Origin: a virus
Virus record (IMG/VR): IMGVR_UViG_3300021373_001376
Coordinates: 1-34,913 of that record
Strand: one strand, 5' to 3'
DNA length: 34,913 nt
Positions 516-28,915 of the stretch are shown here, piece by piece. The position numbers and the translations under genes were made by a program. The stretch's first letter is position 1; the number at the start of each line of letters is the position of its first letter. Below the pieces are notes generated by a model, which saw nothing but the letters and a program-made list of their open reading frames with translations, had not been told where the DNA came from and made no database searches.

Positions 516-729
516 TGTCTGGATGCTCCAGGTTAAGGGACCAATATTCGCCCCGTGCATTGCCCGACCGAATGACGCCGTCGTAAATCTCCCCTGGCTC
601 CATTGGGTATGTCTCGACGGTCCCGTCAGAGAACGCTACCAAATACAGGCCAGGTTCGTGCGGCATCTCACCAGGAGCGACTGGGCTCCACAGGAGTCGA
701 ACGATCTGTTCCATGCGCTTATTGTACAT
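508..729 (-). CDS. Small hypothetical protein, first gene of the packaging/late operon
   Basis: The 73-residue protein (MYNKRMEQIVRLLW...) has no family I recognise. It is mildly acidic, with segments resembling a small beta-rich domain (PGLYLVAFSDGTVETY). It ends with an 8-bp overlap onto the terS start, which supports it as real and co-translated. The ATG at 729 sits directly at the end of the T-tract of a strong terminator and has no Shine-Dalgarno sequence. ATG at 714 (MEQIVRLL) is an alternative, also without a clear ribosome site. Translation may depend on read-through transcripts or be inefficient. Confidence 0.65.
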   Translation of the reverse strand: MYNKRMEQIVRLLWSPVAPGEMPHEPGLYLVAFSDGTVETYPMEPGEIYDGVIRSGNARGEYWSLNLEHPDNG

Positions 730-768
730 AAAAAAAGACCCCAGGGCCTGGAGTGGAACCCTGGGGCC
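730..768 (-). terminator. Strong intrinsic terminator ending the early region
   Basis: On the minus strand a 10-bp stem (737-746 pairing with 759-768, one G:U pair) with a 12-nt loop is followed by TC and a run of seven T (730-736). It lies between the last early gene (stop at 811) and the first gene of the terS/terL operon. A second GC hairpin (774-780 with 796-802, 15-nt loop) lies just upstream. Confidence 0.85.
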
Positions 769-773
769 AACAT

Positions 774-802
774 GGGCGGGAGCAAGGAAACAAAACCCGC
801 CC
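774..802 (-). other. GC hairpin upstream of the terminator
   Basis: An inverted repeat GGGCGGG / CCCGCCC (774-780 and 796-802) has a 15-nt A/G-rich loop. It has no T-run of its own. It may protect the 3' end of the early transcript or act as a tandem element with the terminator immediately downstream. The role is inferred only from position. Confidence 0.5.
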
Positions 803-810
803 GTCCCTGG

Positions 811-942
811 TCATTCGGAGACCTCTTCCTCCTCCGCGCATTTCCAGCAAACACTATCGTCGAATCGATCATCCTCGACGACAGACTCCTCTCGCCAATA
901 TCTCTGATGGCAAATAGGGCAATCAAACGGGTATTCCATCAT
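811..942 (-). CDS. 43-residue CxxC/CxxC mini-protein
   Basis: Reading from ATG at 942 gives MMEYPFDCPICHQRYW..., later VCWKCAEEEE, then TGA at 811-813. The two pairs CPIC and CWKC are spaced as in a small zinc ribbon or rubredoxin-like knuckle, and the tail is strongly acidic. The start overlaps the upstream stop as ATGA, and AAGGTAAG lies at ribosome-site distance. No specific function can be assigned. It may be a zinc-binding host-interaction protein. Confidence 0.7.
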   Translation of the reverse strand: MMEYPFDCPICHQRYWREESVVEDDRFDDSVCWKCAEEEEVSE

Positions 943-1139
943 GATCTTACCTTTGTCATGTTGTCGAGTGGGTGTTGATATCTAACGATCTCGATAGGAG
1001 GCTCGTCGTTCTCTGAGAGCTTGACCACGCTGAAGTCGTACAAGATAGCAGCGTCCTCCTTCCATCGCTTAGACATCATGTACGCGGCCTGGAGAGCGAT
1101 CTCCCACTCCTCCTCGAGCCACTGAATATCGCCTTCCAT
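939..1139 (-). CDS. Small hypothetical early protein
   Basis: This is a 66-residue protein beginning MEGDIQWLEEEWEIALQAAYMMS, with an acidic, probably helical N-terminal half and a short beta-like C-terminal half. I recognise no family. It sits in the early operon between the PD-(D/E)XK-like gene (3 bp upstream) and the CxxC mini-protein (ATGA overlap). The stop/start overlap and consistent spacing are the main evidence that it is expressed. Confidence 0.65.
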   Translation of the reverse strand: MEGDIQWLEEEWEIALQAAYMMSKRWKEDAAILYDFSVVKLSENDEPPIEIVRYQHPLDNMTKVRS

Positions 1140-1142
1140 AAA

Positions 1143-1574
1143 CTACCCCCATTTGATATCAAGCTCGCTGTATTTATACATTGGCTCTATATCGTCACCT
1201 AACGGCTTTCGCCCTAATGGCGTACCTCCCGCTATCCGCAGTTTTGGACTAGAGAGAACTTGCTCGCCATCGGAGATCTCGACCATCCCGAATCGCTCGT
1301 TGTGATGAAAGAACAGAAAGAACGGCTTGCCCGTAAACAGGGCCAGCTGACACCCTTCGATCATCTTAGGCACGTTGACGCCTAAATAGGGCGACTTAGT
1401 TTTGTAGACCTTCACCTCAGCCCAAGCCACGACCTTGTCATCTCGGTGAAAGGCCGCGTCGATGCGATACTTTGCCCCGTTGCCTAGCTTTGTCCACTTG
1501 GCGCTGTACTTTGCCCCGAAGTGATCCAGGACCATCGCCTCATTAATAAGATCTTGCTTGGTCTCACGAAGCAT
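1143..1574 (-). CDS. PD-(D/E)XK nuclease-like protein
   Basis: The protein has 143 residues from ATG at 1574. That start is preferred to ATG at 1586 because GAGG lies 6 bases before it and the overlap with the upstream stop is 11 bp. The segment RIDAAFHRDDKVVAWAEVKV matches the nuclease core pattern: an aspartate at the end of one strand, then an E-x-K on the next, here EVK. A conserved-looking K/Y-rich stretch and QLALFTGKPFFLFFHH complete an alpha-beta fold. Such small phage proteins may process recombination or replication intermediates or act on host DNA. The catalytic assignment is a motif reading, and no substrate can be named. Confidence 0.6.
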   Translation of the reverse strand: MLRETKQDLINEAMVLDHFGAKYSAKWTKLGNGAKYRIDAAFHRDDKVVAWAEVKVYKTKSPYLGVNVPKMIEGCQLALFTGKPFFLFFHHNERFGMVEISDGEQVLSSPKLRIAGGTPLGRKPLGDDIEPMYKYSELDIKWG

Positions 1575-1749
1575 CGCAGACCTCATCGGCGATATGCTTG
1601 TAATCAGGCCAGTGACCAGCCAGGACTTGCTCGCAGTAAAACTGCTGATCCGCGATCTCGTCGTCCATATCCATCTTGCCCATCATCCCAATCAAAATCA
1701 GGACGATAAACAGCGCACCTCCTACGAATAAACGCTCAGTTGTTGTCAT
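1564..1749 (-). CDS. Small single-pass membrane protein
   Basis: The 61-residue protein has one N-terminal transmembrane segment (LFVGGALFIVLILIGMM, about residues 7-23) followed by an acidic soluble tail with two cysteines (YCEQVLAGHWPDY... and EVCDAS). The Y-C-E...WPDY pattern recurs in small uncharacterised phage membrane proteins. It starts at ATG 1749, one base into the previous stop (TAATG), with a G-rich ribosome site. Insertion in the inner membrane is likely; the function is unknown. Confidence 0.65.
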   Translation of the reverse strand: MTTTERLFVGGALFIVLILIGMMGKMDMDDEIADQQFYCEQVLAGHWPDYKHIADEVCDAS

Positions 1750-1952
1750 TATTTACCCCCTATCAGCTGACGCAGTTGACGGAACCCATCACGGTCCTCG
1801 AGCAAGTGCTCCATGGTGGAGTATTGCTTCTCCAGGATATAACGGGACTTGAGCACCTCGATCACCAGGGCGCGGATTTCTGTTTGGGTCAGCACGAGAT
1901 CGGGCTTCTCCAGGAACGCCTCCAGGACGATGTTGGAAGGTGCGCGACTCAT
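1749..1952 (-). CDS. Small helical hypothetical protein
   Basis: This is a 67-residue protein (MSRAPSNIVLEAFLEKPD...) predicted by eye to be nearly all helical and highly charged, without cysteines or a membrane segment. No family is recognised. It overlaps the upstream gene by ATGA and the downstream start by one base, so it belongs to the early operon. Confidence 0.6.
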   Translation of the reverse strand: MSRAPSNIVLEAFLEKPDLVLTQTEIRALVIEVLKSRYILEKQYSTMEHLLEDRDGFRQLRQLIGGK

Positions 1953-2185
1953 TGCCGCGCCTCCTTGGCGATGAACTGTTTGACAGTCCCGCCGAACTTC
2001 GACGCCCGCTCGTTAAAGTCAGCGACGTCTGTGAGGAACAGCTCCTCGGGTAGGATGCCAGCCTCCTGGGCCACATCGATGACGCGGAGCCACTCCTCGT
2101 CGGTGCAGTTGACCAGGGCGGAGCGACAGATACGATCCATCACGTCCTTCTTGCTGGTGTCGATTTTGGTAACGCGGTTATTCAT
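1949..2185 (-). CDS. Small hypothetical early protein
   Basis: The 78-residue protein begins MNNRVTKIDTSKKDVMDRIC and contains the helical, acidic segment EEWLRVIDVAQEAGILPEELF. No catalytic motif or known family is visible. It is followed by an ATGA overlap with the next small gene and lies 26 bp after the first gene of the promoter-proximal early segment. Its N-terminal basic patch and C-terminal FIAKEARQ tail do not point to a specific role. Confidence 0.6.
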   Translation of the reverse strand: MNNRVTKIDTSKKDVMDRICRSALVNCTDEEWLRVIDVAQEAGILPEELFLTDVADFNERASKFGGTVKQFIAKEARQ

Positions 2186-2211
2186 AACTTACCCTCCAGG
2201 TAAAAGGCCGC

Positions 2212-2601
2212 TTATGCGGCCAGGTCTTGCTTAATTTGCTCGTCAATTACCATGTAATGAAAAGCGAGTTGCGCGGTCAGTGTGACGTAATCATCGAGAT
2301 CACGAGGCTGTACTGGTTGAGATGCGATTTCGATTTCAGCATCTTCAAGCAAGCGCTCTGCCTTGCGCTTGTCTGTTGCGTCTATAAAGTCGCTAACGCT
2401 TGCGGCTTTAATTGCAGCGATAAACTTGTAAGCAGATGCGCCATTGACCATTTTGTGGTCACAGATATCTCGTGTTTGACGAAGGTTCAAGCTATCGGCG
2501 TTCCAGGTGTTCCACAGGCCGTCGCTTTTCATCTGGTTGATCTCTTTAATAAACATCTGCGCGATGTATTGAGCTTCAGATTTAATTGCTGCGTAGTTCA
2601 T
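2212..2601 (-). CDS. Hypothetical protein, first gene after the second early promoter
   Basis: A 129-residue protein beginning MNYAAIKSEAQYIAQMFIKEINQ. It is mostly helical and charged, with no motif I recognise. AAGGAAG lies 6 bases before the ATG, one of the clearer ribosome sites here. The gene is preceded by about 107 bp of non-coding DNA holding a sigma70-like promoter. First position after a dedicated promoter suggests it is needed in quantity early, but its job is unknown. Confidence 0.7.
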   Translation of the reverse strand: MNYAAIKSEAQYIAQMFIKEINQMKSDGLWNTWNADSLNLRQTRDICDHKMVNGASAYKFIAAIKAASVSDFIDATDKRKAERLLEDAEIEIASQPVQPRDLDDYVTLTAQLAFHYMVIDEQIKQDLAA

Positions 2602-2648
2602 GTCTTGCTTCCTTTTGGTTGATGGCGGTGTCCCCCGCCGACAAGAGA

Positions 2649-2690
2649 ATCATCTCAAAACCACAGGTAAGCGTCAACTAAATTGATGAC
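2649..2690 (-). promoter_or_regulatory. Sigma70-like promoter with an upstream GTCATC element
   Basis: On the minus strand TTGACG (2672-2677) is separated by 17 bases from GATGAT (2649-2654), which is immediately preceded by TGA and so fits an extended -10. Upstream, GTCATC (2685-2690) lies six bases before GTTGACGC. The same GTCATC/six-base/GTTGACGC arrangement occurs at the promoter near 8.85 kb. The site lies in one of the few non-coding gaps and points at the gene starting at 2601. Confidence 0.65.
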
Positions 2691-2708
2691 TCTCTTTCAC
2701 TTTTGTCA

Positions 2709-3095
2709 CTAATTATATGAAATCCATCGATGATTTTCTGGGTCAGCTTCCCAGGCTCGGTATTGCTCCCTGTAGAACTTGGCGATCTCCAGCCGCAGCT
2801 CTCGATTGGTCTTCATGATGGCGTTGGCTTTATCCCGCAGAATCTCCAGGTGCCCGGGCCCATACACATCCTCTAGGAAATCCATGAACCGTGCGGGCGA
2901 TTCGCCCATCTCGCGGTGATGATAGCGGCACATCGTGATCGCGTTATCGAGCGACCATCTCACGGCCTTATTTCGTCGACCATACACATGGCAGCAGTCA
3001 AGGCCCTCTGTCTTGCCACAGACCATGCAGTGCTGATCCCTGGCTCTCACACATTTGCTAAACCAATTATCGGCGGCGTCTCTCTTGATCGACAT
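2709..3095 (-). CDS. HNH-type zinc nuclease, NinG/Rap-like
   Basis: The 128-residue protein contains CMVCGKTEGLDCCHVYGRR followed by the segment NAITMCRYHHREMG, an HNH-like layout with CxxC and C/H zinc ligands and a CH histidine at the expected place. The C-terminal half is helical and charged. Lambda NinG (Rap) proteins have a related CxxC...GH...C arrangement and help resolve recombination intermediates. The presence of a NinB-like gene 1.5 kb upstream supports that reading. It starts at ATG 3095 with a strong GGGAGGAG site and overlaps the upstream mini-gene by 29 bp. A generic HNH endonuclease is the main alternative. Confidence 0.65.
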   Translation of the reverse strand: MSIKRDAADNWFSKCVRARDQHCMVCGKTEGLDCCHVYGRRNKAVRWSLDNAITMCRYHHREMGESPARFMDFLEDVYGPGHLEILRDKANAIMKTNRELRLEIAKFYREQYRAWEADPENHRWISYN

Positions 3096-3243
3096 AATTC
3101 TCCTCCCGAAACCATCGCTCTCTGAGTATTGCTTTCACTGCGTTCGAACAATCACAGGCCCAGCCGTCCAGGAATCCCTGACTCCAAACGGGGACCATGA
3201 TCTTGTGGCACTCAGTGCATCGAACCTTTGGGGGCTGCTCCAT
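3067..3243 (-). CDS. 58-residue cysteine-containing mini-protein
   Basis: ATG at 3243 begins MEQPPKVRCTECHKIMVPVW, continuing to WACDCS and a basic tail ending in four arginines before TAA at 3067-3069. CTEC and CDC could together bind one zinc ion. GAGGTGATAGAAG precedes the ATG. It overlaps its upstream neighbour by 32 bp and its downstream neighbour by 29 bp, and its presence removes an apparent gap in the operon. Function unknown; a small zinc-ribbon nucleic-acid binder is a guess. Confidence 0.6.
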   Translation of the reverse strand: MEQPPKVRCTECHKIMVPVWSQGFLDGWACDCSNAVKAILRERWFREENYVDQERRRR

Positions 3244-5048: not shown

Positions 5049-5989
5049 GATCGCGGGAGCTCGATGTGCATCGACCGATGACTCTCGGCCTTTTTGAAGG
5101 TCAGGCCTTTGCCCTCCCATAGATTTATGTGGCCCTCGTATGGACCGTTCCGCTGTTTAGCGACGATCAGCTTGAGGTCAGGCTCGGCCATGATCAGTTG
5201 CTCCTTTTCTGTGAGCTTTTCGCCCATCACCTGGAACTGCTTTACCTTTTGTCGCCTTTTATTATGCCAAATTATGAACAGCAAGTGTGCCTGGTCGACA
5301 ATAGTACCGCCGCCTCGCACATCGAACCGCGTTGGAATGTACTCGTCCCCGCCTGATTGTGGTTTTCTCACATGGTGCACCAGACATATATGGACGTCCT
5401 TCGCCTCAGCTATGCCCAAGAGCTGATTCATGAACAGACGCTCCCGTTCAATGTCGTCAGTGACGCCACAGAATTGCAGGTTGTCGACCAGGACGACCTT
5501 AACGCCTCGATCAGCCATCGCGATAATGCAGCCCAGCACCTCGAGCGGCTCGACACCACCGAGTGCTCGATACCAGTACACACGCTCACCGACCCAGTCA
5601 TAAAACTCCTGGGCGAATTTCATGGGCGGCTCATCGGCTGCGGCGGCTTGTTTGCACATCATGTAAGCCGTATCTGACAACTTCATCTCAAACGATGCTA
5701 GGCCGACCTTTACGTGTTGTGCCAGGTGCGTCAGTACAAACGACGCGACCGTGCTTTTCTTATGTCCATTGATACCGCACCAAACGCTGACCTCGCCAGT
5801 GCGTAGCCTGACCTTGTCGTGCGTATCGATCCAGGGAAACGGATACCCGTGTGTGACTGGGTCCGTTTGTACCCGATCAAAAAATGCCTTCTCGAAATGC
5901 TCAATCCTGACGACGTCAGCCGCCTCACTCAAAGCAAAAACCTCCTGGAGATCCTTATCGGTAAAATCTCGCTTCTCGATTATTCTCAT
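5045..5989 (-). CDS. DnaB-like replicative helicase (RecA-fold domain)
   Basis: The 314-residue protein holds mainly the C-terminal ATPase domain of DnaB/T7 gp4-type helicases. The phosphate-binding loop reads CGINGHKKSTV (about residues 71-80), and the Walker B strand is KVVLVDNLQF. HICLVHHVRKP and RFDVRGGGTIVDQAHLL fit the later helicase motifs (H4 and the DNA-contacting loop). The N-terminal domain of bacterial DnaB is missing, as in many small phage helicases. The loop has lysine where glycine is usual (GHKKS against GHGKS). It overlaps the initiator gene (ATGA) and the NinB-like gene, forming an initiator-helicase pair like lambda O and P/DnaB. Confidence 0.85.
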   Translation of the reverse strand: MRIIEKRDFTDKDLQEVFALSEAADVVRIEHFEKAFFDRVQTDPVTHGYPFPWIDTHDKVRLRTGEVSVWCGINGHKKSTVASFVLTHLAQHVKVGLASFEMKLSDTAYMMCKQAAAADEPPMKFAQEFYDWVGERVYWYRALGGVEPLEVLGCIIAMADRGVKVVLVDNLQFCGVTDDIERERLFMNQLLGIAEAKDVHICLVHHVRKPQSGGDEYIPTRFDVRGGGTIVDQAHLLFIIWHNKRRQKVKQFQVMGEKLTEKEQLIMAEPDLKLIVAKQRNGPYEGHINLWEGKGLTFKKAESHRSMHIELPRS

Positions 5990-6582
5990 ATCTCTAGTTC
6001 CCTTATCCCTTCATGCGTTTCGAATTCATCCTCCCAGCGCCGTCCATGCAGCCAGGTTGTGGCGTGGGGAATGTATCGTTGTTCAGTTGACCATGGATAG
6101 GACGTCAGCGCCTCCTTCGCAGCGGCCCTATCTTTTTGGTTAAGCCTGTCGAATGCGACCCTAGCTTTTGCCTTGTTAGTCTTGCGCGGATAGCCCGACC
6201 AGAACTCCTCAAACTCCTTATGGTTATTAATTGATGATTCATTGGTGGTTAGAGAGGTAATTTTACTCCTATCAATAGGTGTCATTTTACCCCTATCCAT
6301 AGGTGTCATTTTACTCCTATCAATAGGTGTAATATTGACCCTATAGATGGTCGATTGTGAATAGCGCCTGTGCCTGGTGATCAGCTCCAGCTCTTCGAGC
6401 ACCTTCAACGTCGATATCAAGGTTTTACGACTAGCGCACGACCGTCGACAGATATCGTCATATGAGGGATAGCAGAAACCGTCCTCGTCAGCTCTATCGG
6501 CTAGGGCGATGAGAATGGCCTTCTGCGTTGCTGTGATGTCTGTCACCACATTGAGCGCCCAGTTGATGGCCGCAATACTCAA
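5986..6582 (-). CDS. Replication initiator, lambda O-like
   Basis: The 198-residue protein starts at TTG 6582, overlapping the upstream stop as TTGA; no better start exists. Residues about 15-85 form a winged helix-turn-helix like those of phage O-type and replisome-organiser proteins (TQKAILIALADRADEDGFCYPSYDDIC...). An 8-residue repeat follows (MTPIDRSK, MTPMDRGK, MTPIDRSK), encoded by the iteron array. The C-terminal part (EFEEFWSGYPRKTNKAKAR...) matches the conserved tail of phage helicase-loader or replication proteins. The helicase gene lies immediately downstream. It presumably binds the iterons in its own gene and recruits the helicase. Confidence 0.8.
   Translation of the reverse strand: MSIAAINWALNVVTDITATQKAILIALADRADEDGFCYPSYDDICRRSCASRKTLISTLKVLEELELITRHRRYSQSTIYRVNITPIDRSKMTPMDRGKMTPIDRSKITSLTTNESSINNHKEFEEFWSGYPRKTNKAKARVAFDRLNQKDRAAAKEALTSYPWSTEQRYIPHATTWLHGRRWEDEFETHEGIRELEI
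6253..6348. repeat. Four 24-bp iterons, probable replication origin
   Basis: Four tandem units with exact 24-bp spacing start at 6253, 6277, 6301 and 6325. Units two and three share AGGTGTCATTTTAC then CTCC/CCCC TAT. At the unit junctions the arms CCTAT and ATAGG face each other across two bases, so each binding site would be a dyad. The outer units are degenerate. AT-rich DNA (about 6218-6265) adjoins the array on the low-coordinate side. The array lies in frame within the initiator gene, the same plan as the lambda origin inside gene O. Confidence 0.75.
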
Positions 6583-11612: not shown

Positions 11613-11881
11613 TAGTCAGTCCAGATAGCGCCGCAGATGTCCTGCACAAGCTGATCTTCACCAGTAACGTCTGTCGCTGTTGATGCCTGGTTACCATCCT
11701 CGTCAGTCGTCACGGTGTAACGCTGTAGATGCTTTACGACTGTGCTAGTAACAGGGAGAGCGTCATCTGTTGAGTCATCAAATGTATGCTCATATACAAC
11801 CATCAACCTTGGATCGCCCTCTGTGGTGTCGGCAGGGTATGTCTCAATGCGCCCAACTGCGCGTGTGTTAGTTATCGCCAT
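11612..11881 (-). CDS. Small hypothetical protein after the tail fibre
   Basis: The protein has about 89 residues from ATG 11881 (MAITNTRAVGRIETYP), overlapping the giant tail gene by 14 bp. TTG at 11887 is less likely. It is acidic with a beta-rich pattern (LMVVYEHTFDDS, LQRYTVTTDEDGN). No family is recognised. Overlap with the fibre gene suggests a fibre-assembly or tail-tip partner, but this is inference. Confidence 0.6.
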   Translation of the reverse strand: MAITNTRAVGRIETYPADTTEGDPRLMVVYEHTFDDSTDDALPVTSTVVKHLQRYTVTTDEDGNQASTATDVTGEDQLVQDICGAIWTD

Positions 11882-14800
11882 TTTCAAGCTCCTCTATTCG
11901 CTTGGTTAGTGATTCAATCGTCTCTTGCTGAGAGCGTACTGATTCTATCAGTAACGAAATAATCTTGGTGTGTTCTACTGTCTTGTACTCGTTGTTAAAC
12001 GGTGCGGGACTAATAGCATCAGGGATGACTTGCTCGACCTCTTGTGCGATGACACCCGTCTCGTGCTTGCACTTAGGTATAAAGCCGTGCGTTTTTTCGA
12101 TACCGTCGATCCAGTCGAACTCTACGCCGCGCAGTTTCATCAGCTTTTCGAGCGGCCTTTCAATCGGCTTTATGTTGGTTTTGAGGCGCTCATCTGAGGC
12201 GTAAGCAGTGATATTGCCTTTCGCCAAAAAATTACCTGAGTCAGCCGTAATCTGAGCCAAAGCTAGATTTGATCCGTTCTCCCATAAAAAGCCTATTTGA
12301 GCGCTACTGTTAGCAACGCGGAATCTAATGCCGTGAGATGTTCTGCCGTCTAGCCCCGCTGGTGCATTGCCACCTGATAAAGATTTTCCAGACCCCGCAG
12401 TGGACATATAGATGCCCCAGTTGGTATCTGAACTATTCCACATATAAATGCCACGGGTACTGCCTCCATCAACTGAGTCCTGTATTTCTAATTTTGCGCC
12501 ACCCGTGTTGACGAGGTTTGAAAACGAAGCGTTGCGACTACTATCAATAACGCCCAAGCTACCTACAGCTAGACCGCCTGCTAGGTACAGCTTATTGTCT
12601 AATTTATTGAAATAAGCCATCTCGTAGAAACCAGAGCCTGTTAACTTTGGCCCCTTATAGAAAGACAGCTTCCCTGTGCTTGTGCCTCTGTCAGATATGC
12701 CCCAACGGATGTTGTTATCGTTGCCTGCGTATCCAGAGCCATAGCCAAAAAATATTTCTGAAACGGTGTTTTCGCCTGTTGAATTAAGGTGCAACTCACC
12801 GCGACCCGAAGATCTAATCCCATTGCCTAGCACGTTGTTATTTGCAAAGACGTTACGGTTAGCGTCAATAATCGTGGTAGAGCCTCGCTTTAACGAGCCT
12901 TGACCAATGACGACATCACCATACGAGTAAATGCTTCCAGACGATTGGGCAATGGAGCCGCCGACATAGAGCTTGTATGAAGAATTTGACGGTGTGCCTA
13001 TGCCGACATAGCCAGTTTTGTTAATTTGTAATTGAGTAGTGCCAGCGTTTTTAATAAAGAAATTACTTTCGCCCGTAGAGGCGTTAAAGACTCGATCAAG
13101 AATAAAATCGTGGTCGGCGTTCGCGTCACTATCCTGAGTCGCAATAATTTTATTCGCGCCATCTGTAACGATAAGCTGAATGTTTTCGTTGGCGTTGCGA
13201 CCAAACTTAATGCTATTTGATGAGTTATAAAATGTATGCCCTTCGCCTGTTGCAGTAATAACGCCGCTGGAAATGGTGCCTAGCGTTGCATTGCGCGAAA
13301 TGTCGATTGCGGCTACGCCGCGAATCTCTAATCCGTTGTAAAGGTTACCGCCTATCTCTGACCAACTGCCAAGAGTTCCACTTTCACAGGTGCGAACCCA
13401 CATGGTGCCTCGGGAAAGCTGAGAAGAAGTGCCAGCGCCAGCGCCATTACCGTAGCGCGGGTAAGCCATTTCCAGCCAGTAATCACCAGAGCTAACTCCA
13501 TGTCCATAAGCATCACCAAGCGCAACGCGGTTGCGATACCACTGAGTGCTGATTGCCGCAGGTGCGTCCACTTGACCCTGTATGAAATTCCAGCCCCAGT
13601 AATCTACGTCAGCATCAAAACCAGCCGTGTTATAACGCGAGTGAGCTAACCACTGTCCGAAGTTGCCATTTAGCGACTGACCGTATTCCGCCTCACCTTG
13701 TGAGACTGTGACGTTTTGTAACTGGCGGCTGGAGTCGATGACGGTCTGCGGTATGGTGCCGACCTTTAGCTCGTCTTGAATAGTGGTGCTTTCGAACAAT
13801 ATGATTGAGCTTGGCTGTACCTGTATTTTTTCATCGCCTGATACAGCGAAGTGGATGCGGTTGGCCGAGCCGTACATCCCCGTGTCGTCGTCGTTTTTAA
13901 ACGTAAACGCTGGCGCAGACTCACTGCCATAGCTCGCTCTAAACTGACTGCCGCTAATCGTGCTAGTTGCGGAAATGCTTGTAGGGGTGAACGCGCCTGA
14001 CAGACTCAAAGACGTTGCACTGATATTGGTGGCTGTGATTGCGCCCGACGTAATACTGCCAAGAGTCGCGTTACCTGCACTGTTGATACGAGTCGTGCCG
14101 TTAATAATGAAATCGCCATCCTCGATTTCTAAATCGCCATCACGAGTTAAAACCAGCTTGGATACCAATCCTCTATCGGCGTTAGCAGTGCCAGAGGTGA
14201 AAAAGTGCAGATCACCTGCTCTAAAGTTAGTGTCAGCCGCGCTAGGAAGTTTGGCCGCAATCGCCGCACCCGCCGACTGATAACCGCCTGACGTACTCAA
14301 CCCGCCAAATGTAATTGCTGGCGACCATACGTTATTTGCTGTTGAGCTGTTTGCAAGTGCCAGGCCCACGCGAGCAGGTTGCCCAGTGGTTGTATCGGTA
14401 TCGCAAAAAACTAAGCCATGCTTGTCATGGTATAGCTCCGTCCCACCTGTTGCTGAATACCAGTTAAGTATTCGCCCTGTTGCGCCGCTAGGAGAGTAAA
14501 AGCGATTGCGTAGCAGAACGTCGACCTCTGCCTCTGTTGTGCCGCTTGCCACATTCAGATGACTAAATTGTGCGTTGCGAGCGCTGTCTATTATCGTTGT
14601 GCCGCCGACTAAAATGTCTGTGCTGTTTTGAAAGTCAACTTCTCTTGTTGAGCCGTCTACAAAAATAAGTCCTACGTTTTTGCCGTTACCTACACGGAAA
14701 TCGCGGAATCGGCTAGTGCCATTCTGATAGCCACGATAGTTAATCCAAAGATCCGCTGAGTCTGTGTCCCAGTTATATCCAGCGTTGAGGCTATTGGTGT

Positions 14801-17800
14801 TAGTCCGCGACATATAAGGCGAAAAACCGTTATCACCTGCAAGCAACACATGACCGTCGCCCGTAATTGTAAATCGCTCGTTTGATGTTGCTTTGCTTCC
14901 CGCTGTACTGGTGTGGAAGCGTATTGCGGCGGCGGAATCGTTGTAGGTCGTGTGAAGGTGTACGTCACCGACGCTGTTGTCATACCAAATCTCAAAACCT
15001 TCACCAGCGATACCAGCTTGCCCGTTCATCTGTAATACAGGATCGGCGGAGGAGCTAGTAGTTACGAACTTTAAAGTGGGATCGGTTGCATTATTGCTTA
15101 TGAGAAGATCGGACTCAGTAACAGTGACGCCTGATTTGCCGTAAGCACTGCCGCCATCAAGCTCAATGCCTGTTTCCCACTCTAGTCTAAGCTGCTGATA
15201 ATCAGGCGAAGACCACGCGCCAGAAGTACGATATATGCCATAGGTATTTGTTATGTGCCAGAAAATACCCTCATCAACCGATGCGGTGTGGTTGACTGAT
15301 CCTCCTGACTTCACTGTTCCGAAGCCCATCTTTGAGCTATCAGTTAATCGGAAATTGCCGAAAGAGCTGGTGCCACTGCTAGTGATAGCGCCCGAGGAAA
15401 TTGTTCCCTCAAATACAGCATTGGAAACGCCATAGCCTGCATTTCTACCAAAGCGAATTAATCCTGCCGCATTGTTTGCCGACTCATAAACAAAAATACT
15501 GCCTAGCGCGTCTCCTGCGTCATGAACCATAAACTCCCAATCTTCAGAGGTGTTCGCTAGGATTCCTGACTGCATAGAGCCAGACCAGCCGCTGGTATAG
15601 CGATAGCTTCTCGACGTGCTACCTATTTCTAAAGCACCGCGCAACATTCCACTAGCGTATGACGAGCCGTCAGTAGATATTGAAACTACGCCACCCGATG
15701 TAGTTTCAAGATAAGTAGAGTCGATTGTGCCGACCGTTATGTTGTCATTCGTCTCTAAGTAGCCAACGGTACTATGATCGCCCCAGCCGTAGGCCGTATT
15801 CCAGTTACCAGAGTTGCCGCCCGATGCGTTGATCTGACCTTGTACAACCAAAGCAGCGGAGCCTGATACGTTTTGCACGTATGCCATAAGACTGCCGCCA
15901 GCGGTAAAGCCAATCTGATTCGTACCGTACTTGTACATACCAGTGCTGGATTCGCCATCAAACGAATATGCCGCTTTCGATACTGTGCCGTCTGACGCAT
16001 AAAATCGACGTGTAGATGCTATGACCGTTGTACCGCCTACTTCATAACCGCCGATTTGAACGTCCAAACCACCAGTGTTTATTTCTAAAACTACGCCATC
16101 TGTATTTCCGCTAGGCGCGAAACGTAAAACTTTTAATGTCGAATTTGCGAAGATAGAGGGAAAGCCCGAACTGTACGCTCCACCCCATTGAACATTGTAG
16201 CCACTACTTAGGGTGAGACTTCCGTTAGTTACGCCTATTTCGCCTGTTGATCCTATTGTGCCGATATTGACTAGGTTACGTGTCGATCCCTGTATTACCT
16301 GAGTCGTGCCGACGTAATAGCCAAGCGTTGTTGAGCCATTGCCCGCTGTAATTGATCCTGCGGTAATAAACTGACCACTACTATTAATAGCGCCATTAAC
16401 ATCTAGCGTTGCAGTTGGTGTAGTAGTGTTGATTCCAACTCGAGTTTGATTAGAGCCTTCGGCTCGCCACGTCATAACGTGATCCCACGTCTGACCGTCA
16501 TCAGCTAGGTATAGATCAAGACGCGAACGCGCATCTGTACCTGAATTTTCCCATCGTCCTAAATCCCAACGTGCGGCTGAGTTATATGCTTCACCTGATA
16601 TGCCTCCCGTTACCCATGCTTGGTTTCTTTGCATAACAGGCGTATTTCCGCCATTGGTATCTTTAGAAATGACAGCCATACGGAAATCAGTAAGTTGATT
16701 ACTTCCGTCATGATTTCCACTGCTAAAGCCGCCAATAATAGCCGTTGGTGCTGTACCCCACGAAGTCGCACTTGCGTCATCATCTCCGTCTACAATAATT
16801 CCATCAAAAGTAGAGGTGCCGCTACTCGTAATAGCGCCGCTACTTATTGTCCCGACAGTTATGTTGTCATTTGTCTCTAGGTAGCCAGCGGCACTATGAT
16901 CGCCCCAGCCGTAAGCAGTCTGCCAGTTAGCAATGCGTGTTGAACTGACGTAATTTGTTGTTTGATTGCTAGGGTAAAAATTATTACGTGAGTAAATTTC
17001 GCCCGTATCGCCGCGCACTTGGAATAACGCTTCTTCAGAGGAGTTCTCGAACAAAAAGCCAATATTTCCTGTGCTGTCATGCACTCTAAAACGTACAGCG
17101 TAAGACGTTCGACCATCTAAACCTGACGCCGCACTGCTCCCCGCAAGCGACCTACTGCCACCTGCTTGACCCATGTAGATACCCCAGTTGGTATCTCCTG
17201 AGTCCCACATCATTATGCCGCGTCCAGTGCCGCCATCTTGCTGATTTTGTATTTCTATAAGAGAGCCGCCAGTGGCTTTAAACAACCCTGTAAATGTGTC
17301 CCCTGTGGTGACCGCGTAGTTTTGCGTTGAGTGATCGCCCCAACCGTATGCAGTGTTGGCATTGGTTGAGCTACCGCCAGTCCATGTCACAACCCCATTT
17401 ATTTCTGTGCGTCCGTCAACGTACATTGTCGGCGATATTGGGTTGCTCGTGCCCGTCTTTATGTAAGCCTTAACAGCGCCGCTAGATAGGAAGTCGATAC
17501 GACCTGCCGCAGTACGACTGATGCCTGTGCCTGAATCGCCATCGAACGAATACGCGGCTTTTACCGTCGTACCGTTGGAAGCATAGAAGCGACGTGTAGA
17601 TGCTATGACCGTTGTACCACTGACCTGATAGCCAAACGGAGTGTTAACGCCACTCGCGTTAAAGCCACCTAATACAACATTGCTCGCATTTTTTAGATCA
17701 ACTGAATTAGTGCCTGCTTGAAAGTAGTGGTTATTCCCGCTGAATTTCAAGGTGCCGCTTGTAGTAATAGCACCCGTGCTAATCGCATTTGTAGTTGTCG

Positions 17801-20800
17801 CGCCGCGCCCCGTTACCGTCGCAAGGGTGTCAGCCTCAGCCGTAAGATATCCCTCCGTACTGTGATCGCCCCAGCCGTAAGCTGTGTTCCAGTTGGTAAT
17901 GTTTGTTGATGTAAAGTCGCCAGCATCCCATATACGGTTGCCATCAATCTCAACGTCGCCTGCTGTATCTAGATCAATACTGAGTTTTTTCTGACCCGCA
18001 CCAATAAAGTTAATTTCGTTTGGATTGCCTGACCACTGGATGCCCCATTGATCTGCGGCTGAACTTGCTGATGGATTATAAGTTTCAGAAATGCCCCAGA
18101 TGTCATGGGTGCCAGTTGTGTCGGCAGTAGTGCGAGCAAAAAAGCCTTCTGCAAGTATTGGCTTTGTTGTTGATCCTGTCGGGAAGGTAACTCGACCTGT
18201 TAGTGTGCCGCCAGCGAGAGGCAAGTGACCGACTTGGCTGTAGGTGTAAGCGGTGTTGGCATTGGTAGAGCTACCGCCTGACCATGTGACGCTACCGCTA
18301 AATGTTGCGTTTCCTGACGCATTGATTGTAAGCCTATCGCTATTATTGTCGTGATCGTAAATGCGGAACATCTTTGTACTTGAGCCTGTACTGCCCAGTA
18401 TTCGCCATGTTCCAGCACCGCCACCCGTTGATGTCAGCCAAATATCGGCCTCAGTACCCTGAGCGAGTAACTGTTTACTGCCACCGCCGCCTTCTACTGT
18501 ATCGCTTGATCTCAGGTAATGATTAAAAACAAAATGATCGTTTGTCTCATCCCACGTAATAGACGCATCTGCCGCAGTGCCGCGATCGACAATAAGGCCA
18601 GCGCCGTCAGATAGTGACTGCGTGTTTCCACTGTTGACGGTTATCGTCTTGTCAGTCACATCTAGGTCGGTGACGTTGTATTGGTCGATGCTTCCTTGCA
18701 GGATTAGCTGGCCTGTGATCGTCAGGTCGCCGTCGAATGTGTCGTTGGTGTTTGACCGAAGGAATGCCGTGGAGTCTAAGTTGTCCAGGGTGTCAGCGTT
18801 ACCGCCTGTCGATGTGACGCCTGTAACGCCCTCATTTGCTTCCAGGGTGAACGGTACAGTCTGACCAGTGAAGGCCGTGCCGACGCTAGTGACACGAACG
18901 CGGAACTGTAGGTCCGTATCATCGGGTATATCGTTACCGCTGCCTGACGTGAACGTCTTGGTGACATCACCAGTTAAAAAGTAAACAAGATACGTGTAAC
19001 CGTAATAACTCGACAGGTCATATTCGCCAAATTGGAGCGTGTGCGTTTTGGTCGCAGACGTTAAATCGGTAAACGTGCCATCGGCTGACACCTCGAAATT
19101 AAGTGTCGCCTGTGCTTGGGCTGTCGTGTAATTGGTCGTGGCATAGAAAAAGTGATCAACGATGAATTCAACGTCTACATCAGCAGTGCCGTGGTCAAAC
19201 TTATCTGACGATGTACCGAGCGTTACCGTCCCGCCTGACGTTGTGAAGCTGCCTGTATCTTCTTTGAAGTCGCCATTCGATCCCCCGACAGATGTTGCCA
19301 GGGAGCCGAATATCGAGTCCAAAGCATCCTGGGAGAGCATCTCCCTGGTGATTGATCCAGGCGCTAGGCTCTTGGCCTCCAATGGCCCTAATACGACCAG
19401 GGAGTCATTCACCGTAATAGTTTCAGCCGTCACATTGCCACGGAACAGTGCATCCGCAGCCTCAAACGTGCCATCGGTTGTCAGCTTCCAGCCTGCTACG
19501 CCCTGGCTGTAATCGGTTGACTGCAAAGTGTCGGCAATCTTAGTGATGGTGACAGCGTTATCAGCGATCTCTGTGGTATCCACTGCGCCGTCAGCAATAT
19601 CGCCAGAGTCAGCCTGGACGCTCGAGCCTGAGTTGCCGCTGGTGCCTGTATAGCTCCCCTTATTGCCTGAGAAGTCCACAGGGCGCAGGAAAAAGTATTT
19701 TGTGACTACGCCGTCAGTGCCAGACGGCTGCTGATAGACATACTCCTCGCCCGCTACCTTGGCCGTTGGTAATGCGTTGGTCGCTGGTGTCGTGTTGGTG
19801 CTTGTGACGTGGACCTCTGTGAACGCATAGTCCAGGTCTGTGGGGTTGGTCCACTCGACAATGATTGATCGAACGCCGCCTGTAATTGCACCCAAGGTGA
19901 TCGCCCCTGGAGGCGTTGTATCGCCCTGGAGCGTTCGGGTTGTGGTTATGAAGTCGCTGCGGACACCTAGCGTATTAAGCGAGCGAACGCGGAACGTATA
20001 CTCAGAACCGACGTCCAGGCCAAACAGCTCGACAGATGACTCTGATGTCCTGGCGAAATTCGTATAATCGGACGCGCTGGTGAGCTTCCATTGAACCTCA
20101 TAGTCGCTAACGAACGCATCATCGGCCTCTGTCCAGGAGAATGAGACAGATGGCTGGACGGTGCCATCTGGCCCCAAGGATGACTGTTCAGTGGTAGCTG
20201 GTACGGTAGGCGCCTCAATACCAAACGGATCGGGCAGCGTGGTGTCCTGGTTGTCGTTTTCTTCTGAGCCAGTCACCCAGCTGTATATGTCGTTATATTC
20301 GATCAGCGACAGGTCGACCTCACCATTATCCTTGATGCGCGTAGAGACCACACGCATGAGCTGACGAGCCGCTCCCGTCCACCCTAGGCTCGGCTGCTCT
20401 AATCGCACAACGTCGCCCACAGCGATATCCATGGCCTCTGACGTGGCTGTCAGCGTTACCGATCGGGTATTTCTCCTGGATGCCTCGCAGACGATCCTGG
20501 CCATCTCTCTGGCCTGGTACAAATTTGTAATCGTATTGAGGTTGATCTCGCGTATCAGCTCCTCGCCGTTGTCCTCAGCCAGGAAAGTCACGAAATCACT
20601 GTTCGAGTCAGTCGATTTCTCTGGATATGTGACCGAGTCCATCTGCCAGTTAGCGGCTGGATTGGGGAACTTGGCGATCACTCTGTTAAATCGCTTGCCC
20701 TTGCCCGCGTCAGTGACGGTTATATCTGACAGAATATTGTCGGGCGTCAGATCGAATGAGCTGGTCTCAGACTTATCAACGCTCAGCCCATACTCGCCAT

Positions 20801-21593
20801 CGGTATACGGTAGAAGGCCGCGCATACCCTGGAGCATCTCTTTGACGTTATCAAACACAGTCTTGCCAGCGTCCAGGCGAGCGTTGCACTCAATCCAGGT
20901 GATAGCCGCTCCGCCAGTATATGGCGTCTCTGTGCCGTCGTATTCGTTAGCAGCCGCGATAAATTTGGTGTCATCGATGGCGCTAGTAGGGAGACCCTTA
21001 CCGTATCGACTATTCGTTAGGTAGTCGCGCAAACACAGAGCTGGGTTAGTGCTGTAACCCGTGGTCGATGTACGTGGGTCGTATACCCTGCGGCCTCTAA
21101 TGACACACTGAATCTCTGGGATGCCGCCGAATACGTCCTGGTCGTACTTAATACGGATCGCCAGGTACGCGACACCTCGCAGCCTGTGGTTGGTTCCCCA
21201 GGAGTCGTCAGCGCCAGATAACAGGCTGGAGTATCCCTGGTTATCGCCGCCTAGCTTCTTGTCGACAGAGATTAAGCCGCTATAGTCTGAATGGGTGTGC
21301 AGCTTGTCGTTGACGTATATCTGATCGATAGCTTCGATGTTGCCCTCAGATAAGACGATCGCCATGTACAGGTATTCGTTTTTCTTGCCGCCACCAGTCG
21401 AAACAAACACGCGAACGCCGCCGACCTTGCGCTTGCCGTAAACGACAGGGATCGGATCGATGTTGCTCTGCTTGTTTACAAGGGCGCCCTGGGCCTGGTC
21501 GTCAAAGTCGTCAAAGTCGACGCCAATTAAGAAGCCGACGATATCGCCCAGGAGGCCAGTAATTCCCTTAATGATGCTAGAAAAGAATCCCAT
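11868..21593 (-). CDS. J: Giant tail-tip/central fibre protein (J-like hub, shaft, S74 chaperone)
   Basis: At 3241 residues this is the host-recognition protein and over a quarter of the genome. Residues 1 to about 450 match lambda J/HK97 tail-tip hubs (VDFDDFDDQAQGALVNKQ, PIPVVYGKRKVGGVRVF, and the Phage-tail_3 segment TLTATSEAMDIAVGDVVRLE). Two fibronectin III-like domains follow (about 460-555 and 562-650), then a J-type region (GWKLTTDGTFEAADALFRGN...) to about 770. From about 970 to 3130 is a long Ser/Gly/Thr-rich shaft of recurring blocks, including YGWGDHS (four times), VIASTRRFYAS, IDSSRNA-like and TISSGAITSSGTS-like units. Residues about 3130-3241 are an S74 intramolecular chaperone (SDERLKTNIKPIE, TGVIAQEVEQVIPDA) with a final coiled coil. 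The chaperone normally trimerises fibres and cleaves itself off. Confidence 0.92.
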   Translation of the reverse strand: MGFFSSIIKGITGLLGDIVGFLIGVDFDDFDDQAQGALVNKQSNIDPIPVVYGKRKVGGVRVFVSTGGGKKNEYLYMAIVLSEGNIEAIDQIYVNDKLHTHSDYSGLISVDKKLGGDNQGYSSLLSGADDSWGTNHRLRGVAYLAIRIKYDQDVFGGIPEIQCVIRGRRVYDPRTSTTGYSTNPALCLRDYLTNSRYGKGLPTSAIDDTKFIAAANEYDGTETPYTGGAAITWIECNARLDAGKTVFDNVKEMLQGMRGLLPYTDGEYGLSVDKSETSSFDLTPDNILSDITVTDAGKGKRFNRVIAKFPNPAANWQMDSVTYPEKSTDSNSDFVTFLAEDNGEELIREINLNTITNLYQAREMARIVCEASRRNTRSVTLTATSEAMDIAVGDVVRLEQPSLGWTGAARQLMRVVSTRIKDNGEVDLSLIEYNDIYSWVTGSEENDNQDTTLPDPFGIEAPTVPATTEQSSLGPDGTVQPSVSFSWTEADDAFVSDYEVQWKLTSASDYTNFARTSESSVELFGLDVGSEYTFRVRSLNTLGVRSDFITTTRTLQGDTTPPGAITLGAITGGVRSIIVEWTNPTDLDYAFTEVHVTSTNTTPATNALPTAKVAGEEYVYQQPSGTDGVVTKYFFLRPVDFSGNKGSYTGTSGNSGSSVQADSGDIADGAVDTTEIADNAVTITKIADTLQSTDYSQGVAGWKLTTDGTFEAADALFRGNVTAETITVNDSLVVLGPLEAKSLAPGSITREMLSQDALDSIFGSLATSVGGSNGDFKEDTGSFTTSGGTVTLGTSSDKFDHGTADVDVEFIVDHFFYATTNYTTAQAQATLNFEVSADGTFTDLTSATKTHTLQFGEYDLSSYYGYTYLVYFLTGDVTKTFTSGSGNDIPDDTDLQFRVRVTSVGTAFTGQTVPFTLEANEGVTGVTSTGGNADTLDNLDSTAFLRSNTNDTFDGDLTITGQLILQGSIDQYNVTDLDVTDKTITVNSGNTQSLSDGAGLIVDRGTAADASITWDETNDHFVFNHYLRSSDTVEGGGGSKQLLAQGTEADIWLTSTGGGAGTWRILGSTGSSTKMFRIYDHDNNSDRLTINASGNATFSGSVTWSGGSSTNANTAYTYSQVGHLPLAGGTLTGRVTFPTGSTTKPILAEGFFARTTADTTGTHDIWGISETYNPSASSAADQWGIQWSGNPNEINFIGAGQKKLSIDLDTAGDVEIDGNRIWDAGDFTSTNITNWNTAYGWGDHSTEGYLTAEADTLATVTGRGATTTNAISTGAITTSGTLKFSGNNHYFQAGTNSVDLKNASNVVLGGFNASGVNTPFGYQVSGTTVIASTRRFYASNGTTVKAAYSFDGDSGTGISRTAAGRIDFLSSGAVKAYIKTGTSNPISPTMYVDGRTEINGVVTWTGGSSTNANTAYGWGDHSTQNYAVTTGDTFTGLFKATGGSLIEIQNQQDGGTGRGIMMWDSGDTNWGIYMGQAGGSRSLAGSSAASGLDGRTSYAVRFRVHDSTGNIGFLFENSSEEALFQVRGDTGEIYSRNNFYPSNQTTNYVSSTRIANWQTAYGWGDHSAAGYLETNDNITVGTISSGAITSSGTSTFDGIIVDGDDDASATSWGTAPTAIIGGFSSGNHDGSNQLTDFRMAVISKDTNGGNTPVMQRNQAWVTGGISGEAYNSAARWDLGRWENSGTDARSRLDLYLADDGQTWDHVMTWRAEGSNQTRVGINTTTPTATLDVNGAINSSGQFITAGSITAGNGSTTLGYYVGTTQVIQGSTRNLVNIGTIGSTGEIGVTNGSLTLSSGYNVQWGGAYSSGFPSIFANSTLKVLRFAPSGNTDGVVLEINTGGLDVQIGGYEVGGTTVIASTRRFYASDGTVSKAAYSFDGESSTGMYKYGTNQIGFTAGGSLMAYVQNVSGSAALVVQGQINASGGNSGNWNTAYGWGDHSTVGYLETNDNITVGTIDSTYLETTSGGVVSISTDGSSYASGMLRGALEIGSTSRSYRYTSGWSGSMQSGILANTSEDWEFMVHDAGDALGSIFVYESANNAAGLIRFGRNAGYGVSNAVFEGTISSGAITSSGTSSFGNFRLTDSSKMGFGTVKSGGSVNHTASVDEGIFWHITNTYGIYRTSGAWSSPDYQQLRLEWETGIELDGGSAYGKSGVTVTESDLLISNNATDPTLKFVTTSSSADPVLQMNGQAGIAGEGFEIWYDNSVGDVHLHTTYNDSAAAIRFHTSTAGSKATSNERFTITGDGHVLLAGDNGFSPYMSRTNTNSLNAGYNWDTDSADLWINYRGYQNGTSRFRDFRVGNGKNVGLIFVDGSTREVDFQNSTDILVGGTTIIDSARNAQFSHLNVASGTTEAEVDVLLRNRFYSPSGATGRILNWYSATGGTELYHDKHGLVFCDTDTTTGQPARVGLALANSSTANNVWSPAITFGGLSTSGGYQSAGAAIAAKLPSAADTNFRAGDLHFFTSGTANADRGLVSKLVLTRDGDLEIEDGDFIINGTTRINSAGNATLGSITSGAITATNISATSLSLSGAFTPTSISATSTISGSQFRASYGSESAPAFTFKNDDDTGMYGSANRIHFAVSGDEKIQVQPSSIILFESTTIQDELKVGTIPQTVIDSSRQLQNVTVSQGEAEYGQSLNGNFGQWLAHSRYNTAGFDADVDYWGWNFIQGQVDAPAAISTQWYRNRVALGDAYGHGVSSGDYWLEMAYPRYGNGAGAGTSSQLSRGTMWVRTCESGTLGSWSEIGGNLYNGLEIRGVAAIDISRNATLGTISSGVITATGEGHTFYNSSNSIKFGRNANENIQLIVTDGANKIIATQDSDANADHDFILDRVFNASTGESNFFIKNAGTTQLQINKTGYVGIGTPSNSSYKLYVGGSIAQSSGSIYSYGDVVIGQGSLKRGSTTIIDANRNVFANNNVLGNGIRSSGRGELHLNSTGENTVSEIFFGYGSGYAGNDNNIRWGISDRGTSTGKLSFYKGPKLTGSGFYEMAYFNKLDNKLYLAGGLAVGSLGVIDSSRNASFSNLVNTGGAKLEIQDSVDGGSTRGIYMWNSSDTNWGIYMSTAGSGKSLSGGNAPAGLDGRTSHGIRFRVANSSAQIGFLWENGSNLALAQITADSGNFLAKGNITAYASDERLKTNIKPIERPLEKLMKLRGVEFDWIDGIEKTHGFIPKCKHETGVIAQEVEQVIPDAISPAPFNNEYKTVEHTKIISLLIESVRSQQETIESLTKRIEELENGDN
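15724..15807. repeat. 84-bp imperfect direct repeat, copy A (shaft)
   Basis: This segment aligns without gaps to 16846-16929 with about ten mismatches. It encodes TNDNITVGTI-type and YGWGDHS-type shaft blocks. Both copies are in the same reading frame of the giant tail gene. It probably reflects internal duplication by recombination within the shaft. Confidence 0.85.
16846..16929. repeat. 84-bp imperfect direct repeat, copy B (shaft)
   Basis: Second copy of the repeat at 15724-15807, in frame in the shaft. Further shorter copies of the YGWGDHS coding motif lie at about 17330-17360 and 17862-17892, and an identical 29-bp stretch encoding IASTRR occurs at 16006-16034 and 17590-17618. Confidence 0.85.
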
Positions 21594-22147
21594 TATTTAC
21601 GGCCCCACTTTAAGTCGCGTACTGTGTTTGCGGCATATTCGAACCCGACATCGCCAGGGAAATACTGCTGCTGAGAGTTGTTGTTGGTCAGGCGCCCTGA
21701 TTTCTTATCGAAGTCAGCCCAATGGCTGGCGGCCTCGACGATTACCTCAGAGGAATCACGTCGCTCAGTCACCTCGAATCGAGTCAATCGACCATCGAAT
21801 GCTACAAAGGGCGAGCCAACGATCGCGCCAGCGGCGCTGATAGCGGCCTTCTGGATTAAAATCTGCCTGTTAACGTAGTCATTGCTTAGAAACAGCGATA
21901 TATACGTCTGCTCCACGCCAGAAAGCGACAGGGACATGGTATTGACTCGAAGCTCCCTGGACTCCTTGGGCTCTCCGATATTAAGAACGTGATCACTGAC
22001 TGAATATGTATTTGAGCCATCGACCACATCATGCGCGTAATCAGTCAGGCGAATGCCCGAACCGACGTCGATGAATACCAGGTTACATAATCGGAAGCTG
22101 TCCTTTGCCAGCTCTGTTTTTAGCGTGGAATTTAGGCCGCGTGGCAT
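21593..22147 (-). CDS. Distal tail/baseplate protein, DUF2163-like (lambda L position)
   Basis: The 184-residue protein contains IRLTDYAHDVVDGSNTYS and VNTMSLSLSGVEQTYISLFL, features of the DUF2163-type tail proteins encoded just before the J-like tip. The first half resembles the beta domain of lambda minor tail protein L. It lacks the cysteine cluster of lambda L. It starts immediately after the gene at 22147 and ends at the start of the giant tail gene, fitting assembly of the tail tip. Confidence 0.7.
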   Translation of the reverse strand: MPRGLNSTLKTELAKDSFRLCNLVFIDVGSGIRLTDYAHDVVDGSNTYSVSDHVLNIGEPKESRELRVNTMSLSLSGVEQTYISLFLSNDYVNRQILIQKAAISAAGAIVGSPFVAFDGRLTRFEVTERRDSSEVIVEAASHWADFDKKSGRLTNNNSQQQYFPGDVGFEYAANTVRDLKWGRK

Positions 22148-22722
22148 CAGAGCACCTCAATGAAATCAATCTCAAAGTTGTACCTATCATAACCCGAGAG
22201 CGCCCATTGCTGGACGTCATTTTCGAGACGTACGGTAAATGGTACGTTGTTATATGTGATCGCGTCATTGTCAGGTATCGCCGAAATCAGTCCTGGCTGA
22301 ATACTCAGGCTGCCTGTCGCTGTCGTGAGGTCAGCTGTAATCATATACACCTTGTCGTGACTGGCGAACTTAATGAAGTCACCCGCCTTGAGTGTGCCTG
22401 ATCCGCCGTCCACGCTGATGGTCGTGTCGCCGATGCTATGCGCTCCGAGTGATTGAGTCGTGCCTGTCCTGGTTCCGCTTGTGTCACTGACTACTGGAGG
22501 CACAATCGTGAAATCCTCGACGCCACCCTCTTGCGCCATAACAAAAGCAAAGACAGGAGCGAACTGCGCCCGCGTAAGGTCGTTATAACGGCCCGTGAGC
22601 GCCCATCGCTGTGAGCCTAGTGATCTTACCTGGGTGCGTCCGTTTCTCGCCTCAGAGCGAACTACGGAGTGCCTGGAGGTGACGGCCACCCGTGAGAATT
22701 CTGGATCTGTTGGGTAACTCAT
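22147..22722 (-). CDS. Distal tail protein (lambda M-like position)
   Basis: The 191-residue protein begins MSYPTDPEFSRVAVTSRHSV and contains RWALTGRYNDLTRAQFAPVF and VEDFTIVPPVV, the pattern of a distal tail beta-barrel. Its place between tape measure and the L-like gene matches lambda M. The C-terminal half (DVQQWALSGYDRYNFEIDFIEVL) supports a structural role. The family is assigned by layout, not by a diagnostic motif. Confidence 0.65.
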   Translation of the reverse strand: MSYPTDPEFSRVAVTSRHSVVRSEARNGRTQVRSLGSQRWALTGRYNDLTRAQFAPVFAFVMAQEGGVEDFTIVPPVVSDTSGTRTGTTQSLGAHSIGDTTISVDGGSGTLKAGDFIKFASHDKVYMITADLTTATGSLSIQPGLISAIPDNDAITYNNVPFTVRLENDVQQWALSGYDRYNFEIDFIEVL

Positions 22723-27997: not shown

Positions 27998-28915
27998 TTA
28001 GCCCAACAAGTGACCGATGAAGTCTGGCTTCCAGGCTTTTACGCCCCAAGAAGCTGCTACCTCGATCATTGACTTGCGATATCCGCGATATGAGCGAACC
28101 TCAAATACGAGGCCGCTATGTGGGTCTTGAACCACAATCGCGTCGTCAGCCGCATCGCCACCGTTTGGAACTGCTGGAGCGCGCATTGCAAGCTCCATAG
28201 CAGCGCGGTGCATAGCGATATTGAACGTGCTGCCGCCTGATGCGTAAACGTTAGCTGACTCACGCATGGCCATGCCTTGGAGGTCAAGCAATACGCCTTG
28301 GCGTAGCAAATCAGTGCCACCCGCAGTGTTAGCTGTCTGAAGGTTTGCCAGGTTGCGAAGGTTAGCACCAGCCGCTGTATCGATGATCAGAGAAACCTGA
28401 CCGTCGTTTGTTGGCATACCATTGTCGACGAGCTCCTTGCGGATGTCTGCGATCAGGTCGAAATTAGACGCGAATGGCGTAGTGCCACCAGTGCCCACTG
28501 TGCCCGCAGGGGTTGCAGTACCAGCTGCTTCGCCTAAGTCAGCTTCGATCTCGTTGCAGAGCGTTCGCATAGCTTGCTTGATCTGATCACCGTAAACAGT
28601 CTCGAAGCCGATACCATTGTTCAAGTGACGTATATCCTCACCTGTGTATGGGATCTGAACTGCGCGAGCGTTTGTGATGCTCAGTGTCTTGTTGTCGACA
28701 GTCTGATCGGTGCCCTCGGGAATAGTCATCGCCTCGGTTACATCGACAGCTGTCGCGGCGCGAGTGAATGAAGCACGAACGACGTCGCCCTTTGCTGCTC
28801 GCTCTGAGCCGTTTGCGTTGATGGTTGACGCGGGGATGAAGCCGACGAGCTCCCTGCCCACGACATCGGCAGCTTTATAAATGTCCGCTGCTAGGTCTGT
28901 AAGTACGTTAGCCAT
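27998..28915 (-). CDS. Major capsid protein, P22 coat family
   Basis: The 305-residue protein begins MANVLTDLAADIYKAADVVGR, with DVVRASFTRAATAVDVTEAM and AVQIPYTGEDIRHLNNG, features of the P22 gene 5-type coat proteins of marine phages. GYRKSMIEVAASWGVKAWKPD at the C-terminus is also family-typical. It forms the HK97-fold shell. The gene follows the scaffold gene and is closed by a terminator. The strong AGGAGG-type site upstream fits high expression. Confidence 0.88.
   Translation of the reverse strand: MANVLTDLAADIYKAADVVGRELVGFIPASTINANGSERAAKGDVVRASFTRAATAVDVTEAMTIPEGTDQTVDNKTLSITNARAVQIPYTGEDIRHLNNGIGFETVYGDQIKQAMRTLCNEIEADLGEAAGTATPAGTVGTGGTTPFASNFDLIADIRKELVDNGMPTNDGQVSLIIDTAAGANLRNLANLQTANTAGGTDLLRQGVLLDLQGMAMRESANVYASGGSTFNIAMHRAAMELAMRAPAVPNGGDAADDAIVVQDPHSGLVFEVRSYRGYRKSMIEVAASWGVKAWKPDFIGHLLG

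Follow-up and report, generated by a model that had tools for sequence, protein, structure and literature searches.

Introduction

The chain of T5 pb3 ends after its hub region, and the central fibre of T5 is a separate protein. In phage lambda, a trimer of gpJ seals the tail and itself extends the central fibre (PMC11101478). A single gpJ chain of 1132 residues (8iyk) carries hub domains, a fibronectin III (FNIII) domain, a tail-tip segment and the fibre, which has a compact receptor-binding tip and no S74 domain. Opening of the lambda tail involves a decrease in the FNIII-to-tip distance from 29.7 to 13.2 nm (PMC11101478). S74/ICA domains trimerise fibres and then cut themselves off; endosialidases and MYRF use a Ser–Lys pair for this catalysis (PMC3742443). 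In nearly all annotated cultured-phage matches sampled, S74 ends distal or lateral fibres, which agrees with the statement in a preliminary description of the present locus that S74 usually terminates separate side-fibre or tailspike proteins.

The DNA analysed here (the window) is an IMG/VR contig of 34913 bases, recorded as 'linear'. The preliminary description placed a tail hub, a repetitive shaft of about 2100 residues and an S74 chaperone in one protein of 3241 residues, and this arrangement was borne out by a single open frame with Pfam domains at both ends. The protein is best explained, with a probability of roughly 0.8, as a lambda-gpJ-type trimeric hub that carries, in place of its central fibre, a long T4/cyanophage-style S74 fibre that is self-folded and self-trimmed.

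Genomic context of the hub–fibre gene

The gene is one uninterrupted frame of 3241 codons from its ATG (Table 1), lies on the minus strand, a detail absent from the preliminary description, and occupies 9726 of the 34913 bases. The earlier figure of 28% of a 35-kb genome thus stands as a share of the window (27.9%); the status of the contig as a whole genome is unproven. The terminase small subunit (159–560) and large subunit (33720–34913) lie at opposite contig ends, which suggests a near-complete permuted genome cut between the terminase subunits. The order of genes is tape measure, distal tail, gpL-like protein and hub, and the hub thereby occupies the position expected for the lambda-gpJ/T5-pb3 type.

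No second fibre gene was recognised among the annotated ORFs of the window, and the giant protein is therefore probably the only receptor-binding fibre of the phage. Some of the short downstream genes that carry no assignment could encode extra tip proteins.

Two further features of the window were recorded. Three copies of the 24-bp repeat ATTTTACTCCTATCAATAGGTGTC lie at 6260–6330, inside an O-like replication initiation gene (5986–6582), and look like the iterons of a lambda-style origin within its initiator gene. Separately, the distal tail protein matches positions 219–304 of the major-head-protein family phrog_283, and the best phrog_283 match of the head protein (27998–28915) spans only family positions 1–218. 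The two proteins may share a decoration domain that was transferred from head to tail.

Table 1. Features of the hub–fibre gene and its upstream neighbours, in window coordinates.
Feature	Residues	Position	Strand	Basis or remark
Hub-fibre-S74 gene, whole	1–3241	11868..21593	-	3241 aa, 343.5 kDa
J/pb3-type hub domains	1–440	20274..21593	-	Profile matches to pb3 and gpJ; PHROG central tail fiber J
Phage-tail_3	272–405	20379..20780	-	Pfam, E 2.4e-09
fn3 (fibronectin III)	482–543	19965..20150	-	Pfam, E 8.2e-07
Phage_Tail_Tip segment	673–726	19416..19577	-	Pfam; relative L009 loses similarity near here
Domain between hub and fibre	739–912	18858..19379	-	Conserved in L095, L096 and L155 (alignment)
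Start of fibre-type sequence	913–1021	18531..18857	-	41% identity to L036 fibre
Diverged-repeat fibre shaft and tip	1022–3132	12198..18530	-	Self-matches
Copy of tip-proximal module	1441–1519	17037..17273	-	61% identical to 3030–3108
Tip module just before S74	3030–3108	12270..12506	-	Self-match; copy up the shaft
Peptidase_S74/ICA chaperone	3133–3241	11871..12197	-	Pfam; predicted cleavage before S3133, 12.5 kDa
Tail protein phrog_2048		21593..22147	-	PHROGs match; adjoins hub, gpL position
Distal tail protein phrog_1302		22147..22722	-	PHROGs match
Tape measure protein	676 aa	22719..24749	-	PHROGs match

Hub domains and the hub–fibre junction

Residues 1 to about 740 form a hub region of the J/T5-pb3 type. 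The N-terminus matched the PHROGs family central tail fiber J (E 2.7e-76), and a profile built from 10 related hubs found T5 pb3 (7zhj) as its best PDB match (E 1.8e-54) and also lambda gpJ (E 1.3e-27).

The domain that follows the hub was modelled with AF2 at a mean pLDDT of 43, too poor to give the fold of residues 739–912. Directly after this domain lies the motif ADTLDNLDSTAFLRSNTNDTFDGDLTITG. The segment that contains it, residues 913–1021, resembles residues 49–162 of a separate 1143-residue fibre on L036, a 156-kb marine contig, and the first 48 residues of that fibre resemble a fibre adaptor. As the match begins just after the N-terminal adaptor, the simplest reading of these sequences is that a fibre minus its adaptor was joined to a hub.

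Alternatively, cleavage of the finished chain might separate hub from shaft, and the virion would then contain two proteins, hub and fibre, as with T5 pb3 and pb4. Separation works in many relatives, in which hub and S74 fibre have a gene each; however, Pfam revealed no protease site or domain at the junction, the sole recognised processing domain is C-terminal, and the same junction domain is retained in three other fused chains. A cut at this point is considered quite improbable.

Fibre shaft

The repetitive character claimed for the shaft was confirmed by 28 off-diagonal self-matches in the fibre, against 0–3 in ten shuffled sequences. The repeats have diverged and lie scattered, not in tandem at the DNA level; correspondingly, Tandem Repeats Finder reported no DNA repeat array in the giant gene. 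The length of about 2100 residues given previously compares with ~2200 residues counted from residue 913, or ~2390 from residue 741. The copy of the tip-proximal module that lies far up the shaft may serve as an additional binding knob, or it may be left over from a former end of the fibre.

The T4 long fibre is ~144 nm in length and is built from chains of 140, 23 and 109 kDa (PMC3004832). At the same mass per length, the shaft (residues 741–3132, 251 kDa) would measure ~133 nm. Tail length corresponds to ~0.15 nm per tape measure residue, and from its 676-residue tape measure the phage's own tail would be ~100 nm long.

The S74 chaperone

Pfam placed Peptidase_S74 at residues 3133–3193, with a score of 58.2 bits that exceeds the curated cut-off of 22. 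The last 164 residues matched the human MYRF ICA domain and S16-type gp37, both as sequence matches, and the two ends of the chain are thus each homologous to solved proteins. An AF2 model of the tip had a mean pLDDT of 36.6, too poor for fold reading or fold search. The Ser–Lys dyad is intact, with S3133 and K3138 five residues apart. Both residues are also kept in all six chains that combine hub and S74 (SDERLK, SDERLK, SDIRLK, SDESLK, SDARLK and SDKSLK).

These residues bear on whether S74 folds the fibre without self-cleavage and remains at the tip. In favour of such a non-cleaving domain, the support for cleavage extends to the Ser–Lys dyad and not to an oxyanion arginine or trimer geometry, and L155 and L211 have S for R inside the SDxxLK motif. 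Retention of Ser and Lys in six chains, though their S74 identities fall to 36%, argues for cleavage, and a permanently attached S74 domain is regarded as unlikely.

Fused and split loci in other viruses

The preliminary description had proposed a search for other phages with hub and S74 on one chain. Fetched viral contigs were surveyed with a hub profile and an S74 profile. The 76 complete hub frames obtained include duplicates. Hub and S74 occurred on one chain in four distinct survey frames: those of the window (3241 residues), L095 (3459), L096 (3533) and L155 (2602). A shaft-based search added the chains of L209 (2553 residues) and L211 (3274). Besides the window protein there are accordingly five more distinct complete chains, of 2553–3533 residues and on other viral contigs, making six independent examples. 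A further contig, L210, has the same hub and shaft matches as L211 but is truncated.

The search bears directly on the possibility that a hub gene and a fibre gene were wrongly joined during sequence assembly, an error that the preliminary description had raised as a join inside the shaft. The contig is metagenomic, the gene is rich in repeats, and two close relatives end within the shaft. Against this, the frame is open throughout its 3241 codons; a 4440-base match to L007, 99.6% identical in DNA, starts upstream of the gene, reaches about residue 1244 and so crosses the hub–fibre junction; L210 and L211, each from a different metagenome, carry the same hub and shaft matches; and there are the five other complete chains. 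A chimeric origin for this particular gene is very remote, and as an account of the architecture an assembly join is ruled out by the five chains together with the L007 match.

Most related hubs are of 0.8–1.7 thousand residues and lack S74; in the first survey, complete hub frames without S74 reached at most 1730 residues. S74 lay on a separate gene of the hub locus in seven loci (L003, L105, L125, L126, L135, L139 and L151). In L215, the hub is matched in part by a 1053-residue frame that ends at 3347; a frame of at least 2530 residues, with shaft sequence common to the window protein, starts 24 bases on at 3371. On its sequence, L215 shows the unjoined state of hub and fibre.

Three other sources were searched. 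No chain with both hub and S74 was seen in the best 60 matches of a 3000-residue query among annotated phages, and no hub was found in unannotated marine S74 records. S74 was present in 47 of 754 Gamma- and Alphaproteobacteria-class genomes, with no recognised hub on the S74 chains fetched. One of these 754 genomes has an S74 match (G483:C34:140793-140945) in a frame whose reported open length is 25,189 aa; its product may be a giant adhesin that uses S74.

Exchange of hubs and fibre tips

Pairwise comparison of the fused chains gave discordant identities at the two ends. The window and L095 share 42% identity in the hub and 98% in the S74 end; L095 and L155 share 85% and 39%, L155 and L211 share 28% and 81%, and L209 and L211 share 41% and 39%, respectively. 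At the DNA level, L095 has almost no hub match to the window, patches of 82–91% identity in the shaft, and 89.5% identity over the last 561 bases.

Other relatives resemble the window in the hub. L008 has 96% DNA identity to the window, which stops at about residue 1019. For L009, 79% DNA identity runs from the tape measure gene as far as about residue 656, with no match thereafter. The L009 gene (10001–15193) has a hub 82% identical to that of the window and encodes a 1730-residue chain with coil-like repeats at its tail; no S74 was found in its 32-kb contig. Judged from these alignments, hub and fibre tip are inherited separately and swapped between phages, a point absent from the preliminary description.

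In a hub tree, in which some branches are long, S74-bearing rows fell in three separate places. A single origin of the hub–S74 fusion was set aside on account of these three placements, among which losses and gains are indistinguishable.

Proposed mechanism

It is proposed that recombination inside the gene would have swapped a short central fibre for a long, S74-ended one. The hub that closes the siphovirus tail would consist of three copies of the protein, whose chains would run on as one central fibre. Hub assembly and fibre assembly are both threefold, and three chains can thus be common to hub and fibre. The C-terminal ICA domain would gather the chains and, starting at the tip, fold the β-rich shaft upward; a cut of its own before S3133 would then release the last 109 residues and leave the rest fixed to the hub. 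A single central fibre, trimerisation and loss of about 110 C-terminal residues, all put forward in the preliminary description, are plausible on this view. The remaining fibre, ~130 nm long, would be the only receptor-binding device. Lambda-like opening is hard to picture through a shaft more than 100 nm long, and this was counted against the model.

More tentatively, the fused chains may represent a class of recombining siphovirus J proteins in which a hub is combined with S74 'megafibres' that can be interchanged, that equal an entire T4 long tail fibre in length and that exceed the phage's own tail. If such a class exists, a receptor signal from more than 100 nm away would travel along the shaft, or binding would be uncoupled from tail opening, unlike in lambda. 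The protein is in either case a test case for whether a tail-opening signal can pass along a very long central fibre, and the split, fused and swapped loci form a natural series for the study of phage host change.

Comparison with known systems

T4-type gp37 and the S74 long fibres of cyanophages share the S74 end, shaft motifs and fibre start sequence with the window protein, but they are side fibres on their own adaptor and are not continuous with the hub. Among cultured phages, the Pelagibacter phages HTVC202P, HTVC112P, HTVC026P and HTVC111P have the closest hubs. HTVC112P has a hub related to that of the window and an adjoining S74 fibre; these are, however, encoded by two neighbouring genes, gp47 and gp48, as a 1102-residue hub and a 756-residue S74 fibre.

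Hubs are varied by translational fusion, according to a 2026 structural paper (PMC13243795). There, gp25 of Alishewanella phage LSH1 carries, fused to its hub, an adhesin of the myovirus long-fibre kind; the adhesin is S16-like and polyglycine, and S74 is not mentioned in the passages that describe it (PMC13243795).

The pneumococcal protein PblB (phage K13 gp07, 2107 residues) is encoded soon after the tape measure gene, and is a long chain with a C-terminal S74. Its N-terminus is predicted to be a prophage endopeptidase tail domain (PMC4508584). PblB differs in its Gram-positive host, Tal-like N-terminus, coiled-coil shaft and shorter length. As PblB was not matched significantly by the hub profile (best E 0.056), it is, on sequence comparison, an analogous chain of tail protein and S74, built on the same principle in another lineage of hubs.

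No description of a J-type hub with S74 was found in the literature searched, which lay outside subscription journals. The window protein and its relatives place two standard fibre designs on one chain in several hub lineages, one being the extension of a J-type hub and the other an S74 fibre that trims itself; the tips move between phages without the hub. Given the precedent of PblB and the known variation of hubs by fusion, the combination of a J-type hub with S74 is unusual and informative, and is not categorically new.
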